Source: Alistipes sp.
GTDB lineage: Bacteria; Bacteroidota; Bacteroidia; Bacteroidales; Rikenellaceae
DNA: 64,000 bases
Direction: 5' to 3'
NCBI GenBank assembly: GCA_017936685.1
Contig: JAGBFA010000008.1
Span: 49,048-113,047, forward strand
The notes under the pieces were generated by a model. It made no database searches and was not told the DNA's origin. It saw nothing but the letters and a program-made list of their open reading frames with translations. A program made the translations under genes and the position numbers. Positions 3,988-40,392 of this stretch are shown here, piece after piece; the stretch's first letter is position 1; the number at the start of each line of letters is the position of its first letter.

Positions 3988-5079
3988 TTAGCGGTAACGG
4001 TAGAGCTGATCCCTTAACCGTGGCGTGAAACCCATCTCGCGTATGGCCTGCTGTATGCCCTCGCTGTCGAAACGGTTGCGGGCACCGGCCGAGGAGACGA
4101 CATTCTCTTCGATCATGATCGAACCCATGTCGTTGGCACCGCTGCGCAGAGCCATCTGCGCCGTGGCCTTGCCGACGGTGAGCCACGAGGCCTGTATGTT
4201 GCGTATGTTATTGAGTATAAGTCGGCTTACGGCTATTATGCGCAGATACTCTATCGACGAGAAGTGCGAGGCGACACCCTCGCGTTCGAGCTGCGTGCCG
4301 CTCGAACAGAAGACCCACGGTATGAATGCTATGAAGCCGTAGTTGCCCTCGGGACAGTGCGCCTGCAAGTCGCGTATGGTGAGCAGGTGATCGACCCTCT
4401 CGTGGGGTGTCTCCACATGGCCGTACATCATCGTGGCCGAGGTGGGGAGGTTCATCTCGTGCGCCTCGTGCATGACGCGGATCCACTCTTCGGCCGAGGG
4501 TTTGGCCGGCGATATGCGGCGGCGCACACGGTCGCAGAGGATCTCGGCACCGGCACCGGGCAGCGAGTCGAGCCCCGCTTCGCGCAGACGTTCGAGCGTG
4601 CGGCGCGTGGTGAGTCCGCTCACGCGGGCTATGTGCGAGATCTCGGGGGCACCCAAGGCGTGCAGACGCAGCGAGGGGTACTCTTGTTTGAGGTGGCGGA
4701 AGAGCTGCTCGTAGAAGTCGATGCCCAAGCGCGGGTGCAGGCCGCCCTGCAACAGCAGCTGGTCGGCCCCCAATTCCAGTGCCCGGTCGATTTTGGAGCG
4801 ATACTCGGCCAGCGTGGTGATGAAAGCCCGCTCGGTGTCGTGGGGCTTGCAATGGAAGTTGCAGAACTTGCAGCCCGAGATGCAGACGTTGGTTATGTTG
4901 ACGTTGCGGTCGATCTGCCATGTCACCACATCGGGATCGTCGACCACCTCGCGGCGCAACATGTCGGCCGTCTCGGCCAGCTCCTGCAACGGAGCCTCGT
5001 CGTAGAGGCGGTAGGCCTCTTCGCGCGTCAGCGACTCGCGCTGCAAACACTTTTCGTAAATAGGTTTCAGGCTTATCAT
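3988..5079 (-). CDS. mqnC: Cyclic dehypoxanthinyl futalosine synthase (menaquinone pathway)
   Basis: This radical SAM enzyme cyclises dehypoxanthinyl futalosine in the futalosine route to menaquinone. The [4Fe-4S]-binding CxxxCxxC is formed by C66, C70 and C73 (CISGCKFC), followed by the family landmarks SLPGAGAEIL and QASWLTVGKATAQ. Its 363 residues fit the family. The ATG overlaps the rnr stop by one base (TAATG), so it ends the five-gene operon that starts with the glutaminyl cyclase. The other radical SAM enzyme of the pathway, MqnE, is encoded in this window at 35145. Repeat A4 lies immediately downstream and may serve as the transcript 3' end. Confidence 0.94.
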   Translation of the reverse strand: MISLKPIYEKCLQRESLTREEAYRLYDEAPLQELAETADMLRREVVDDPDVVTWQIDRNVNITNVCISGCKFCNFHCKPHDTERAFITTLAEYRSKIDRALELGADQLLLQGGLHPRLGIDFYEQLFRHLKQEYPSLRLHALGAPEISHIARVSGLTTRRTLERLREAGLDSLPGAGAEILCDRVRRRISPAKPSAEEWIRVMHEAHEMNLPTSATMMYGHVETPHERVDHLLTIRDLQAHCPEGNYGFIAFIPWVFCSSGTQLEREGVASHFSSIEYLRIIAVSRLILNNIRNIQASWLTVGKATAQMALRSGANDMGSIMIEENVVSSAGARNRFDSEGIQQAIREMGFTPRLRDQLYRYR

Positions 5080-34029: not shown

Positions 34030-35145
34030 ATGAAGAACAGGTTACTGCCGTCGATAAAGGGCTATCGGATACTCGATCGCTACATACTGGGAAAGTTCCT
34101 CCGGACGTATCTGTTCGGTCTGGCCATGATCATCGTCATCGTGGTGGTGTTCGACTATACGGAGAAGGTCGACGACTTTACCGAGTTGAAGGCTCCCACG
34201 CGAGCCATCATCGTCGATTACTATCTCAATTTCATTCCCTACTTCATCAATCAGTTCAGCGGTCTGTTCACATTCATCGCCGTTATATTCTTCACCTCGA
34301 AGATGGCTTCGCAGACCGAGATCGTGGCCATACTCTCGGGCGGTGTGAGCTTCAAGCGGTTCCTGTGGCCGTACATGCTGGGTGCCATGTTCATCACGCT
34401 GCTCAGCTTCGCGCTGAGTCTGTGGATCATACCCATATCGCAGCGCGACTGCGTGGAGTTCCAGCGCAAATATATCAAGCGTCAGCAGGTACTGCCCTAC
34501 GACCACGACATATACCGTCAGATCGACGACGGCACGTATGCCTACGTGCGCGGCTATTCGCCCAATCTGGAACGCATACCCTATTTCGCCATCGACCGCT
34601 TCGACGGCTCGTCGATGGTCGAGCAGTTGGACGCGGCCAGCGTGTCGTTCGATCCCCAGACGCGTCGCTGGACGGCACCGCGATATACGATACGCCGCTT
34701 CGAGGAGGGTGACGAAGTGTCGTTCAAGCAGTACCGCAATCTCGATACGCTGATCAACCTCGATGCGCGCGAGCTGGGTCACATCGAGTCGCTGATAAAG
34801 ACCATGACCATAGGCGAGCTGAATGACTTTCTGGCGCAGCAGCGCAAGAAGGGTGCCGACGACGTATATGTGATAGAGGTCGAGCGTCATGCACGGTTCT
34901 CCTATCCCATCTCGGCCATCATTCTGACGCTGATCGGCGTGTCGCTCTCGTCGCGCAAGGTGCGCGGCGGCATGGGATTCCACATAGGCATGGGCATAGC
35001 ACTCTGCTTCGCATACATCATGTGCGGCCGCGTGTTCGAGCAGATCGCCGTCAGCGGATCGCTGCCGGCGTGGTTCGGCGTGTGGCTGCCCAACTTCATA
35101 TTCGCCGTAATAGCCGTTGTAATCTACTATAAAGCACCCAAGTAA
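34030..35145 (+). CDS. LptF/LptG-family lipopolysaccharide export permease
   Basis: This 371-residue inner-membrane protein of the YjgP/YjgQ family forms part of the LptB2FG transporter that extracts lipopolysaccharide. It has the usual arrangement of three N-terminal helices (starting YILGKFLRTYLFGLAMIIVI), a periplasmic beta-jellyroll (about residues 140-270) and three C-terminal helices. Whether it is LptF or LptG cannot be decided; the partner is not in the window. It begins 21 bases after tgt, and its stop codon overlaps the mqnE ATG. Confidence 0.92.
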   Translation: MKNRLLPSIKGYRILDRYILGKFLRTYLFGLAMIIVIVVVFDYTEKVDDFTELKAPTRAIIVDYYLNFIPYFINQFSGLFTFIAVIFFTSKMASQTEIVAILSGGVSFKRFLWPYMLGAMFITLLSFALSLWIIPISQRDCVEFQRKYIKRQQVLPYDHDIYRQIDDGTYAYVRGYSPNLERIPYFAIDRFDGSSMVEQLDAASVSFDPQTRRWTAPRYTIRRFEEGDEVSFKQYRNLDTLINLDARELGHIESLIKTMTIGELNDFLAQQRKKGADDVYVIEVERHARFSYPISAIILTLIGVSLSSRKVRGGMGFHIGMGIALCFAYIMCGRVFEQIAVSGSLPAWFGVWLPNFIFAVIAVVIYYKAPK

Positions 35146-37478
35146 TGGAGAGTCTGTCGAGCATCGTCGAAAAGATACGCCGTGCGGAGCGCATATCGCC
35201 GGCCGAGGCCATACGCCTCTGGCGCGAGGCCCCGCTGTGGCTGTTAGGCAGGTTGGCCGCCGAGCGCAAGCGCGCCGTGAGCGGCGACGAGGTCTACTAC
35301 AATCGCAACATACACATCGAGCCGTCGAACATCTGCATCTTCAACTGCGAGTTCTGCTCGTTCCGCCGCACTGCGGGCGATGCGGAGGCGTGGTCGCTGT
35401 CGCTCGACGAGATCGAGCAGCGGGCGCGCGAGGCCGCCGGCCGCGGCATCACGGAGGTGCATATCGTGGGTGGCGTGCACCCCGATTATACGCTCGACTT
35501 CTATTGCCAGATGATACGCCGCGTGAAGCGCGCACTGCCCGAGGTGGCGGTGAAGGCCTTTACGGCCGTCGAGCTGCTCTACATGATCCGCAAGGCGGGG
35601 CTTACCGTGGAGAAGGGCCTGCGCCGTCTGGTGGAGGCGGGCATGGAGGCTATACCGGGCGGCGGCGCGGAGATCTTCGACGAGGAGCTGCGCAGGAAGA
35701 TATGCCCCGACAAGGGTACGGCCGACGAGTGGCTGGCCGTACACCGCATAGCTCACCGCATGGGGCTGAGCAGCAACGCTACAATGCTCTACGGCCATGC
35801 CGAGACCATCGAGCAGAGGGTGGATCACCTCGACCGGCTGCGCCGCTTGCAGGACGAGGCCCCGGGCTTCGATGCCTTTATCCCGCTCAAATACCGCAGC
35901 CGCCACAACCGTATGTCGGATCTGGGCGAGTGCTCGGTGGAGGAGGATCTGCGGACGATAGCCATGAGCCGCATATATCTCGACAACATACCCCATATCA
36001 AGGCTTACTGGGTGGCCTACGGTGCCGCCACAGCCGAGATGTCGCTGCTGTTCGGAGCCGACGACCTGGACGGTACCATCGACGACTCGACCAAGATATA
36101 CTCCATGGCCGGTGCCGATGCGCGCCCGTCGATGAGCGTCGGGCAGATCGAGGCACTCGCCGCCTCAGCCGGCTTCCGCGCCGTCGAGCGCGACACCCAC
36201 TACCGCCCCGTGACATCGCGTCCAGAGGGCGTGACGCAGCCTGCGGTCGAGCGCGAACCTGCGGCAGCCGCGAGCAAGCCCGAGCCTTCGAAACAGCCCG
36301 AGCGGCCGAGACAACCCGTGCAGACAGAACAGCCCGCGCCGTTGAAGCGTCCGGCGCAACCCGAACACGTGCAGCCTCGCAAGCAAGAGCCGGCAGCACC
36401 GATACAAATAGATAAAAAACCTTCCGAAGAGATGCAACGCAGAGAGAGTGATCAGGCAAGGCCTGTGCGCGAACGCCGCGCGCAGCGTACTGCGCGCAGC
36501 AACGGTGCCGATGGCGGCTTTTGGCGGCGTGCCAACCGCCTGCGCAAGAGATATCCGGTGGTGGCACACCTTATATATATAATAGCGGTGCTGCTGCTGC
36601 TTGTCGTCGTGTTAAACTTAGGTCTCAGGTGGGGTACGCGTCACGGCAAGACCATATCGGTGCCCAACTTCGTGGGAATGGGTATCGACGAGGTGCGCGC
36701 GGAGGCTTCGCGCATGGATCTCAATATCGTGGTGCAGGATTCTATATTCGATTCCGATGTGGCCGGCGGTGTGGTCGTCGAGCAGCTGCCGCGCTACGGA
36801 AACAAACGCGATGTGAAGGTGAAGCCCGGCCGAAAGATATATGTCACGATCAACGCCTATAACCGCCGCACGGTGACTGTGCCGTTCGTGGCCAAGCAGT
36901 CGCTGCGTCAGGCCAAGAACCAGTTGGAGCGCGCCGGTCTTACGATCAGGGAGCTGATATACGAGCCCGACCGCGTGGCCACGGACTATGTGCTGCGCGA
37001 GGAGATCGGCGGCCGTCAGATACTCTCCTCTTCGTCGCCCGTAACGGTGCCCTATGCTACGGGCGTGACGCTGTATGTGAGCTACGAGCAGTCGAAGGCC
37101 ATGACCGCGGTGCCCAAGGTGATAGGCATGCGTCTGTCGCAGGCGCAGAGCACATTGTGGGACAACGGTCTGAATGTGGGTGAGGTGATCTACGATGAGA
37201 GTGTCAAGGACTTCAAGCAGCGTCGCGAGGCCAAGGTCTACAAGCAGTCGCTGCATCAGAATGCCGGTGCGCGCCGCGGTGCTCGTGTGACGCTCTATCT
37301 GACGTGCGACGAGGCGGCGGTGTCGGCGAGTGCCAAACGCTCCGAGGCGGAGGCATTGCGGTATGAGCAGCAGCGTCGTCAGCAGGAGCGCGAGCTTGCC
37401 GATTCGCTCTCGGAGGCCGAGACCGTAGCCAAACTGCTCGAAGAGATGTCGACGGAAAACACCGTTCGGAATGATTGA
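35145..37478 (+). CDS. mqnE: Fusion of aminofutalosine synthase MqnE with a transmembrane PASTA protein
   Basis: Residues 1 to about 352 are a complete MqnE, the radical SAM enzyme that makes aminofutalosine in menaquinone synthesis, with cluster cysteines C64, C68 and C71 (CIFNCEFC) and AIPGGGAEI. Residues about 355-470 form a proline-, glutamine- and glutamate-rich linker. A membrane helix lies at about 475-496, followed by three PASTA domains (about 504-575, 578-650 and 654-725) and a charged coiled tail. MqnE is normally about 370 residues long; in Bacteroidota the PASTA protein is usually a separate gene before rluD. An internal ATG at 36432 (residue 430) could also start a free PASTA protein. 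The frame is continuous, with no stop or frameshift in the linker. Confidence 0.93.
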   Translation: MESLSSIVEKIRRAERISPAEAIRLWREAPLWLLGRLAAERKRAVSGDEVYYNRNIHIEPSNICIFNCEFCSFRRTAGDAEAWSLSLDEIEQRAREAAGRGITEVHIVGGVHPDYTLDFYCQMIRRVKRALPEVAVKAFTAVELLYMIRKAGLTVEKGLRRLVEAGMEAIPGGGAEIFDEELRRKICPDKGTADEWLAVHRIAHRMGLSSNATMLYGHAETIEQRVDHLDRLRRLQDEAPGFDAFIPLKYRSRHNRMSDLGECSVEEDLRTIAMSRIYLDNIPHIKAYWVAYGAATAEMSLLFGADDLDGTIDDSTKIYSMAGADARPSMSVGQIEALAASAGFRAVERDTHYRPVTSRPEGVTQPAVEREPAAAASKPEPSKQPERPRQPVQTEQPAPLKRPAQPEHVQPRKQEPAAPIQIDKKPSEEMQRRESDQARPVRERRAQRTARSNGADGGFWRRANRLRKRYPVVAHLIYIIAVLLLLVVVLNLGLRWGTRHGKTISVPNFVGMGIDEVRAEASRMDLNIVVQDSIFDSDVAGGVVVEQLPRYGNKRDVKVKPGRKIYVTINAYNRRTVTVPFVAKQSLRQAKNQLERAGLTIRELIYEPDRVATDYVLREEIGGRQILSSSSPVTVPYATGVTLYVSYEQSKAMTAVPKVIGMRLSQAQSTLWDNGLNVGEVIYDESVKDFKQRREAKVYKQSLHQNAGARRGARVTLYLTCDEAAVSASAKRSEAEALRYEQQRRQQERELADSLSEAETVAKLLEEMSTENTVRND

Positions 37479-38607
37479 TATGCCGAATACCGATAGAGAT
37501 ATGTCGCGCGACGAGCTGCTGCAATCATCGCAGCCAGCGGAAGAGATCGATGCCGCCGTGGACGAGGAGCAGAGCGACGAGCTGTTCGAGCACTTCTCGA
37601 TAACGGTGGACAAGGGACAGTCGCTGCTGCGGTTGGACAAGTTTCTGGTGTGCCGTTTGGAGAACACCTCGCGCAACCGCATACAGGCGGCGGCCGACAG
37701 CGGCAACGTGCTTGTCAACGGCCGTCCGGCCAAGTCGAGCTACAAGGTCAAGCCGCTCGACCGCATATCGATCGTCATGCCCTATCCGCGGCGTGAGTTG
37801 GAGATCATACCCGAGGATATTCCGCTCGACATAGTCTACGAGGACGACGACGTGCTGGTGGTCGATAAAGAGGCCGGCATGGTGGTGCACCCGGGCTTCG
37901 GCAACTACACCGGCACGCTGGTCAACGCGCTGACATTCCATCTGCAACATCTGCCCATGTTCCGCGAGGGCGACATGCGCGCCGGACTGGTTCACCGCAT
38001 CGACAAGAATACGTCGGGTCTGCTGGTGGTGGCCAAGAACGAACGCGCCCATGTCGATCTGGCCAAACAGTTTTTCGACCACACGATCTACCGCCGCTAT
38101 GTGGCTCTTGTGTGGGGCAACATCGAGCAGGACGAGGGCACCATCACAGGCAACATCGGGCGCAACCCCAAAGACAGGTTGCAGATGTGGGTCTTCGCCG
38201 ACGGCTCGGACGGCAAACACGCCGTCACGCACTTTCGCGTGCTGCGCCGCTACGGCTACGTGACGCTGGTCGAGTGCCGGTTGGAGACGGGTCGCACCCA
38301 CCAGATACGCGTGCATTTCGCATGGCAGGGGCACCCGCTGTTCAACGACGAACGCTATGGCGGCGACCGCATATTGAAGGGAACCACATTCATGAAATAC
38401 AAGCAGTTCATAGAAAACTGCTTCCGCACCATGCCGCGCCACGCGCTCCATGCGCGTGCGCTGGGTTTCGTACACCCCCGCACGCACAAGGAGGTGATGT
38501 TCGACAGCGAGCTGCCCGACGACTTCCGTGCGCTGCTGTCGAAGTGGGAGACCTATACGGCAGCGGCGGCGGGCGGACGCGATCCTTTGGACGAGTCGGA
38601 GTTGTAA
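37471..38607 (+). CDS. rluD: 23S rRNA pseudouridine synthase, RluD family
   Basis: This 378-residue enzyme isomerises uridines in 23S rRNA. An N-terminal S4 RNA-binding domain (about residues 48-105, LLRLDKFLVCRLENTSRNRI) precedes the catalytic domain with the aspartate in HRIDKNTSGLLVVAKN and the later RTHQIRVHF. The first 45 residues are an acidic extension. The start overlaps the mqnE-PASTA gene by 8 bases; an ATG three codons in is an alternative. Its position behind a PASTA gene is the usual arrangement in the phylum. Confidence 0.93.
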   Translation: MIDMPNTDRDMSRDELLQSSQPAEEIDAAVDEEQSDELFEHFSITVDKGQSLLRLDKFLVCRLENTSRNRIQAAADSGNVLVNGRPAKSSYKVKPLDRISIVMPYPRRELEIIPEDIPLDIVYEDDDVLVVDKEAGMVVHPGFGNYTGTLVNALTFHLQHLPMFREGDMRAGLVHRIDKNTSGLLVVAKNERAHVDLAKQFFDHTIYRRYVALVWGNIEQDEGTITGNIGRNPKDRLQMWVFADGSDGKHAVTHFRVLRRYGYVTLVECRLETGRTHQIRVHFAWQGHPLFNDERYGGDRILKGTTFMKYKQFIENCFRTMPRHALHARALGFVHPRTHKEVMFDSELPDDFRALLSKWETYTAAAAGGRDPLDESEL

Positions 38608-38625: not shown

Positions 38626-40392
38626 ATGGCATTCTTACCCACAACCATAAAGGAGGTGCGCGAGCGCGGTTGGGAGCAGTTGGACGTGATACTGTTCACG
38701 GGCGACGCATATATCGACCACCCGTCGTTCGGCGCGGCGGTCATAGGCCGTCTGCTCGAAGACGAGGGCTATCGCGTGGCCATCGTGCCGCAGCCCAACT
38801 GGCGCGACGATCTGCGCGACTTCACCAAGCTGGGCACGCCGCGGCTCTTTTTCGGCGTGACGGCCGGAGCCATGGACTCGATGGTCAATCACTATACGGC
38901 CAATCTGCGCCTGCGCAGCAACGACGCTTACACGCCGGGCGGCCGTGCCGGATTCCGCCCCGACCGTGCGGTGGAGACATACGTCGGGATACTCAAACGT
39001 CTGTTCCCGCACACGCCGGTGGTGGTTGGCGGCATCGAGGCTTCGCTGCGGCGGCTCACGCACTACGACTATTGGAGCGACGCGCTGCGCGAGTCGATAC
39101 TGCTGACCAGCGGTGCCGATCTGCTGATGTACGGCATGGGCGAACGCGTCGTGCAGCAGGTGGCGCGCGCCATGCGCAACGGCTATAATGCCAAGCTGCT
39201 GCGCGGAATCAGACAAGTCGGCTTCGTTGCCGACAGAGCATACGTCGAGCGTCTCGATCCTGCCGCGACGCTGCATCTGCACCCGTTCGAGGAGTGCGTG
39301 CGCGACAAGCGCGCTTTCGGCGAAAACTTCGTGCAGATAGAGACGCTGAGCAACATGAAGGAGTGCGATAAGACCATTGTCGAAGGCTCGGGCGACCGCT
39401 ATGTGGTCATCACGCCGCCCAACACCACGTTAACGACCGAGGAGCTGGACCACTCGTTCGATCTTCCCTACGAGCGCGCTCCGCACCCGCGCTACCGCGG
39501 CAAGGGCGATATTCCGGCGTGGGAGATGATCAAGCACTCGATCAACATACACCGCGGCTGCTTCGGCGGCTGCGCGTTCTGCACCATATCGGCGCATCAG
39601 GGCAAGTTCATCAACTCGCGCTCGGAGCGTTCGATCCTCGCCGAGGTCGGCAAGGTGGCGGCCATGCCCGACTTCAAGGGCTATATCTCGGATATAGGTG
39701 CGCCGTCGGCCAACATGTATCGCATGCAGGGGCGTAACGAGGAGGCGTGCCGCAAGTGCCGCCGCCCGTCGTGTCTGCACCCCAAGCTCTGCCCCAACAT
39801 GTGCAACGACCACCGGCCGCTGCTGGACTTGTACGAGAAGATACGCGCCGTTAAGGGGGTTAAGAAGGCATTCATCGGCAGCGGCATACGCTACGATCTG
39901 TTCGACGACTCGCCCTATTTGGAGACTGTCATCAAGCATCACACCTCGGGACGGTTGAAGGTCGCGCCCGAGCATACGGAGCGGGCGGTGCTCGATCTGA
40001 TGCGCAAGCCGCCGTTCGAGATGTTCGAGCGTCTGAACGACGACTTCCAGCGCATCTGCCGTCGCGAGGGGCTGCGCTATCAGCTGATTCCCTACTTCAT
40101 ATCGTCGCACCCGGGCTGTCGCGAGGCCGATATGCAGGCTCTGTCGCACAAGGTGTTGGGCAAGCTGCATTTCACGTTGGAGCAGGTGCAGGACCTCACG
40201 CCTACGCCAATGACGCTCTCGTCGGTGATGTTCTTCACGGGCGAGAATCCCTATACCGGCGAGCGGGTCTACGTGGCGCGCACGCAGGAGCAGAAGCGGC
40301 GGCAGAAGGCTTATTTCTTTGCCGAGCACCCTTCGGGCTATGCACCTCGCCGTGACGGCCGCAAAGCCGCTCTACGGAAGCGAAAACGATAG
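38626..40392 (+). CDS. ygiQ: YgiQ-family radical SAM protein
   Basis: This 588-residue member of the YgiQ family has an uncharacterised role. The radical SAM cluster is bound by C312, C316 and C319 (CFGGCAFC), preceded by the family-specific N-terminal domain with FLPTTIKEVRERGW. It is followed by a cysteine-rich segment CRKCRRPSCLHPKLCPNMC and by APEHTERAVLDLMRKP. The length is normal for the family. It begins 18 bases after rluD and is the last gene of the tgt operon. Its last 21 bases overlap the end of an oppositely oriented small gene. Confidence 0.93.
   Translation: MAFLPTTIKEVRERGWEQLDVILFTGDAYIDHPSFGAAVIGRLLEDEGYRVAIVPQPNWRDDLRDFTKLGTPRLFFGVTAGAMDSMVNHYTANLRLRSNDAYTPGGRAGFRPDRAVETYVGILKRLFPHTPVVVGGIEASLRRLTHYDYWSDALRESILLTSGADLLMYGMGERVVQQVARAMRNGYNAKLLRGIRQVGFVADRAYVERLDPAATLHLHPFEECVRDKRAFGENFVQIETLSNMKECDKTIVEGSGDRYVVITPPNTTLTTEELDHSFDLPYERAPHPRYRGKGDIPAWEMIKHSINIHRGCFGGCAFCTISAHQGKFINSRSERSILAEVGKVAAMPDFKGYISDIGAPSANMYRMQGRNEEACRKCRRPSCLHPKLCPNMCNDHRPLLDLYEKIRAVKGVKKAFIGSGIRYDLFDDSPYLETVIKHHTSGRLKVAPEHTERAVLDLMRKPPFEMFERLNDDFQRICRREGLRYQLIPYFISSHPGCREADMQALSHKVLGKLHFTLEQVQDLTPTPMTLSSVMFFTGENPYTGERVYVARTQEQKRRQKAYFFAEHPSGYAPRRDGRKAALRKRKR

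Follow-up and report, generated by a model that had tools for sequence, protein, structure and literature searches.

The stretch of DNA analysed here (the window) comprises 64,000 nucleotides of contig JAGBFA010000008.1, positions 49,048 to 113,047 of the forward strand, in an Alistipes sp. genome (GCA_017936685.1; Rikenellaceae). Its positions 35145 to 37478 hold a gene in which mqnE, encoding aminofutalosine synthase of the menaquinone pathway, runs in a single frame into the sequence for a membrane protein with PASTA repeats. This is confirmed as a real open reading frame and not an assembly slip, and it is made up of the following parts:

35145..37478, plus strand: fused gene mqnE-PASTA, one frame from ATG to TGA, 777 amino acids (aa), no interruption
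35145..36215, plus strand: MqnE (aminofutalosine synthase) domain, residues 1-357, retaining CX3CX2C; TIGR03700 at 1-351, best match in both sequence and fold PDB 6xi9/6xig
36216..36431, plus strand: linker, first part; disordered, with E, A, P, K and V abundant across the 36 fused linkers
36402..36431, plus strand: A-rich, little-structured stretch ahead of the internal ATG; A 0.53 and AT 0.70 over 30 nucleotides
36432..36434, plus strand: internal ATG (codon 430), from which a free PASTA protein of 348 aa likely begins, judged by context and folding
36432..36554, plus strand: second part of the linker, the basic cytosolic tail of the PASTA protein; net positive in 36/36 fused linkers
36555..36635, plus strand: transmembrane helix, residues 471-497; helix in the AlphaFold2 model, hydropathy
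36657..36854, plus strand: PASTA repeat 1; 43.2 bits in the genome profile scan
36873..37049, plus strand: PASTA repeat 2; 23.2 bits in the genome profile scan, exactly at the cut-off
37107..37301, plus strand: PASTA repeat 3; 31.4 bits in the genome profile scan
37311..37472, plus strand: C-terminal long helix, residues 723-776, in the AlphaFold2 model

A preliminary description, made from the sequence alone, had recognized one frame in which a complete MqnE is joined by a linker and a single membrane helix to three PASTA domains, and the open reading frame, the profile matches and the structure model bear this out. The MqnE profile TIGR03700 aligns to residues 1-351 over all 351 of its positions, scoring 432.5 bits with hmmscan on the whole protein (2 under the curated cut-off of 434.55) and 435.2 bits in the genome scan, slightly above it. 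Pfam assigns Radical_SAM to residues 58-232 and CofH_C to 240-355, followed by PASTA; three PASTA matches lie at or over the profile cut-off of 23.2 bits in the genome scan, and only two stretches pass individually when the protein is scanned alone. No Ser/Thr kinase domain was found, Pfam at E 0.001 giving Radical_SAM, CofH_C and PASTA alone, and the PASTA kinase family NF033483 matches residues 411-719 at 89.9 bits with a cut-off of 450. In an AlphaFold2 model built from 65 sequences of the window and its relatives (mean predicted local distance difference test score, pLDDT, 85.2), the MqnE domain is predicted well, residues 367-457 fall below pLDDT 50, and the helix at 471-497 and the PASTA strands are recovered; with a predicted template modeling score of 0.53, the relative placement of the two halves is not firm. 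Among solved folds, this model matches MqnE best (6xig and 6xi9, 46% identity over about 355 columns), and the PASTA kinase ectodomains 3m9g, 3py9 and 5e12 rank lower; by sequence alone, the PASTA half matched no solved structure at E 0.001. The structure alignment covered 37 fused proteins and 16 of the 25 listed separate loci. As for topology, the proposed membrane helix is supported by hydropathy and by the model, while the placement of the PASTA part outside is something that we infer, the positive-inside charge rule holding in 26/36 fused proteins, which is weak evidence.

The preliminary description had also proposed comparing the locus across genomes, and this comparison, run for the genus, uncovered fused, separate and secondarily split forms. 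Among 180 genomes scanned, at least 114 have mqnE among the matches listed, a count that could miss fragmentary copies. Loci were fetched and their stops read directly, since the length of an open frame was rejected as a test of fusion: a frame can run through stops, as in G015, where 709 aa span a TAA between the two genes. The 114 genomes divide into 38 with a fused gene, 74 with separate neighbouring genes and two that are unreadable (G010, G074). Linkers are very different among the 38 fused genomes, their length ranging from 56 to 186 aa in the 36 members of the clade described below and being 41 aa in a further locus (L069). Among the 23 fused loci with names, 21 have ruminant colon, cecum or rectum given as their source. 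When 344 genomes of the order were scanned, all listed MqnE rows except that of the window lay in open frames of 288-470 aa, and no other MqnE frame above 470 aa occurs among the matches listed. An 843-aa PASTA frame in G019 was considered as a further fusion and rejected, its extra residues looking, by eye, like an alternative frame over the upstream gene.

Two side observations concern genomes with other arrangements. In 22 of the 85 separate rows (e.g., L015, L017, L024 and L026), the two open frames are parted by a lone in-frame stop, and read-through of that stop could yield a fused product in such species too. In addition, 66 of the 180 genus genomes have no mqnE among the matches listed; the PASTA gene is retained in the five loci fetched from such genomes (L208-L212), and many of these genomes have a single match, suggesting loss of mqnC as well, so that the futalosine pathway looks absent there.

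Trees were inferred from the concatenated MqnE and PASTA parts with the linker excluded. From 177 distinct loci, 122 entered a quick tree and 51 of these a careful one; loci without both parts, those with short MqnE matches and, save six, those below 58% identity were left out (L207, fused but cut at a contig end, was excluded for its short MqnE match). The quick tree requires three changes of state. In the careful tree, a clade of 39 rows with support of 100/100 unites 36 fused loci with three separate ones (L045, L057 and L136) that group together inside it. Two changes of state are required by its starred branches, and a history with one change is absent from all 200 bootstrap trees (5-95% range 2-2). 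The simplest history suggested by these trees is one fusion at the base of the clade and one later fission, and a separate recent stop loss in each species was rejected on the same basis for the main clade. In the split trio, two or three in-frame stops separate MqnE from the helix, and the pre-helix tail has kept the greater length typical of the fused clade: 36-40 aa, with a median of 36 in fused loci and 13 in the other separate rows. A second fusion lies outside the main clade, at 5001-7139 of L069 (genome G163; its sequence is the same as L198), where four codons separate the end of MqnE from the internal ATG; it is known from a single genome. The recurrence of the frame in 38 genomes with differing linkers, 36 of them in one supported clade, goes beyond chance, and an origin by chance or artefact was rejected on this ground.

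The fusion appears to be maintained by selection. Read in frame, the 36 fused linkers contain no stop in 3370 codons, compared with 129 and 305 when the two remaining forward frames are read, although this absence is partly definitional because fused loci were picked for an open frame. More weight is placed on the clade retaining the frame. With a rough neutral clock based on MqnE third codon positions (tree length 25.3, fixed topology, no fitted test), the neutral expectation is about 178 stop gains in the linker upstream of the internal ATG, about 38 of them falling within the ten codons nearest to it, whereas one fission was observed. In 11 hand-picked fused pairs, the ratio of nonsynonymous to synonymous substitution rates (dN/dS) is 0.02-0.09 for the MqnE domain, which is thus under strong purifying selection. 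Of 132 columns near-invariant in separate MqnE, 122 are retained by 95% or more of the 37 fused rows, and the radical-SAM motif CX3CX2C is present in 36/36 fused and 85/85 separate rows. For the linker before the ATG, dN/dS is 0.09-0.93, always below 1, in the eight pairs where it could be computed, the other three being saturated; at values up to 0.93, the amino acids themselves may not matter. Translation and retention of the joined frame are therefore most likely, and the exact linker residues most likely matter little beyond disorder and an abundance of E, A, P, K and V.

The suggestion that the ATG at residue 430 could start a free PASTA protein gains support from the fused clade as a whole. 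Initiation in Bacteroidetes has been described as proceeding without a Shine-Dalgarno sequence, with upstream adenines and low structure being favoured (PMC6847099). Each of the 36 fused linkers, including that of the window, contains at least one ATG (71 in total). Because choosing the best ATG by its context would be circular for the -1 base and for the synonymous test, the main test set consisted of the 14 linkers with exactly one ATG, which involve no choice. At these sites, the adenine fraction from -20 to -1 is 0.496 versus 0.358 at random codons (0/5000 draws as high), T stands at -1 in 12/14 versus 22% of linker codons, and folding energy is -1.86 versus -7.73 kcal/mol, the site being less structured than the median of its own linker's codons in 13/14. 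With three near sisters removed, the remaining 11 linkers give adenine 0.473 versus 0.364 (0/5000) and T at -1 in 10/11; separate PASTA starts have T at -1 in 71%. For all 36 linkers, the most A-rich ATG of each was taken, and is hence selected for A; its mean folding energy of -2.59 is close to those of mqnE starts (-2.98) and separate PASTA starts (-2.75), compared with -12.46 for ATGs inside MqnE, -11.22 for those inside PASTA and -9.25 for other linker ATGs. For both context and unstructuredness, the window's ATG (36432) ranks at the 96th percentile within its own linker. In the split trio, where stops intervene and the PASTA gene must therefore begin after them, the first PASTA ATG past the stops is 36-40 codons before the helix region, as in the window. 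Averaged over the fused linkers, the context of the linker ATG resembles that of genuine starts, unlike internal methionine codons, and the gene most likely yields two proteins, one in which MqnE is membrane-anchored through PASTA and one consisting of free PASTA.

The genes surrounding the fusion, together with a later gene of the pathway on the same contig, are as follows:

34030..35145, plus strand: LptF/LptG-family permease gene (Pfam LptF_LptG, E 2.2e-69); its stop overlaps the mqnE start
37471..38607, plus strand: rluD, directly downstream, with an 8-base overlap with the end of the fused gene
3997..5076, minus strand: mqnC, a later step of MqnE's pathway (TIGR03699, 429.8 bits, above the cut-off)

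In all 39 members of the fused clade (36 fused, three split), lptG lies upstream and rluD downstream. The latter also follows in 76 of 82 separate-gene rows, and the proposal that MqnE is truly fused to the PASTA protein otherwise standing before rluD is supported. Where the two genes are separate within the genus, they lie close together, mostly with short gaps or overlaps. The PASTA part was matched in 23/24 genomes from other families of the order, nine of which have mqnE (eight readable, that of G045 being broken). The PASTA gene lies beside mqnE in five of these eight loci (L027, L029-L032); in L028, L033 and L034, no adjoining PASTA gene was found within the 1.5 kb read around mqnE. Given such adjacency in other families, the neighbourhood is older than the fusion. 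The window genome, an 88.8% complete draft in 16 contigs, yielded one MqnE (the fused one), one MqnC and two PF02621 genes, which we take to be MqnA and MqnD; the fused protein is thus the only source of MqnE found in it. As a side observation, rluD is followed by a YgiQ-family radical-SAM protein gene (window 38626-40392, TIGR03904).

Taken together, the locus is best read, with moderate confidence, as an old, selected mqnE-PASTA fusion with two nested products, for which tethering or fixed co-production is the most likely use; both products, the topology and the tethering role we infer from the comparisons above. Ribosomes starting at 35145 would produce MqnE followed by a disordered linker of about 110 residues, one helix and a periplasmic PASTA part, anchoring the enzyme to the inner membrane on its cytosolic side, while those starting at the ATG at 36432 would produce the PASTA protein alone, as in separate-gene relatives. 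The long product would tie the amount of MqnE to that of the PASTA protein, and tethering may place an early menaquinone enzyme near later membrane-bound steps or a wall site. Tethering or fixed co-production is the most economical reading and likelier than envelope sensing.

Several points weigh against this interpretation. All 23 named fused loci come from metagenome-assembled genomes that carry the label Alistipes or Rikenellaceae, and the existence of the split trio means that a cell can live without the fusion. The absence of stops in fused loci is weak as lone evidence, the expected number of stop gains is a rough estimate, and the linker is weakly constrained. With regard to the internal start, the base before the ATG of the window is G rather than T. 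T at -1 is in any case a weak sign by itself, being common at ATGs inside MqnE (0.43) and PASTA (0.56) and rare at mqnE starts (0.17). A stands at -3 in only 8 of the 14 single-ATG linkers, and context-matrix scores are poor in L122 (0.15 of 1), L051 (0.20), L058 (0.49) and L127 (0.52). Moreover, the ATGs were matched by place and context and not by alignment, because the linkers are too different to align. Finally, none of the comparisons run links PASTA to quinone synthesis.

Among the alternatives, a coupling of expression has the most in its favour and is still rather unlikely: ribosomes would have to run into the PASTA start for the PASTA protein to be made, and the joining of the proteins would be useless in itself. 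The closeness of the two genes in separate species and the start-like context retained by the internal ATG are in line with this idea. However, coupling should tolerate stops near the ATG, precisely where the shortfall between expected stop gains and the one fission is seen, and those 22 of 85 separate rows that are one stop away from fusion nevertheless stay separate. Less probable again is a control of the kind exerted by PASTA receptors, in which bound wall fragments would alter the clustering or activity of MqnE so that menaquinone follows the state of the envelope. The layout is that of PASTA kinases (cytosolic enzyme, flexible segment, one helix, PASTA repeats), kinase ectodomains appear among the fold matches, and NF033483 matches the protein, though far below its cut-off; PASTA kinases have been described as sensing muropeptides (PMC8528326). 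Yet a conformational signal would pass poorly through a linker that is long, disordered and hypervariable in length, it would be diluted by any PASTA protein made in free form, and split species manage without the joined protein. The preliminary description had suggested that quinone supply could respond to the state of the envelope, a view that now seems less likely than tethering or co-production; its fullest version, a one-component sensor in which PASTA would read the wall, tethered MqnE would set menaquinone supply and the free PASTA form from the internal start would tune the response through competition for the ligand, is given little credence.

A post-translational cut in the disordered linker, releasing separate MqnE and PASTA proteins, is about as improbable as such a sensor. 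The low-confidence segment of the model and its highly variable sequence would suit a cleavage region, but no common motif was evident by eye in the 38 linkers (no motif search was run), and cleavage leaves the scarcity of stops unexplained. An artefact, whether frameshift, misassembly or missed stop, might be suspected in a draft genome; replicated fused frames were, however, looked for in other genomes and found, with different linkers and including G190 and G075 (both 99% completeness), which makes this explanation extremely improbable.

If the preferred reading of a tethered or co-produced MqnE is correct, an early enzyme of menaquinone (vitamin K2) synthesis would sit at the membrane, attached to a wall-binding module that is widespread in bacteria, and the little-studied Bacteroidota PASTA protein would gain a candidate partner. 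The genus offers a natural comparison of fused, separate and secondarily split species, with a second independent fusion in addition, and at this locus genome comparison points to a second product nested within a fused gene. No description of an MqnE-PASTA fusion was found in the literature searched, which lay mostly outside subscription papers, and no function for the stand-alone Bacteroidota PASTA protein was found in the titles and abstracts covered.

Compared with known systems, the protein shares with MqnE (TIGR03700; PDB 6xi9 and 6xig, Pedobacter heparinus) the whole enzyme domain, the CX3CX2C motif, the fold and the near-invariant residues, but differs in that the enzyme is joined to a membrane PASTA module. 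The stand-alone PASTA protein before rluD in Bacteroidota is the same protein in the same place, here joined to mqnE; its tail before the helix has a median of 13 aa (80 rows), compared with 36 from the internal ATG in fused proteins. A relative of MqnE also occurs in a natural fusion in the bifunctional CofGH (FO synthase, NF006687). That fusion joins two enzymes of one pathway, whereas mqnE-PASTA joins an enzyme to a wall-binding membrane module. With the PASTA receptor kinases (PknB/PrkC/Stk1, NF033483), to which its likeness is greatest, the protein has in common a cytosolic catalytic domain, a flexible segment, one helix and PASTA repeats outside, a radical-SAM biosynthetic enzyme replacing the kinase domain. 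By domain it is an MqnE, and by layout it resembles a PASTA receptor kinase without being one.

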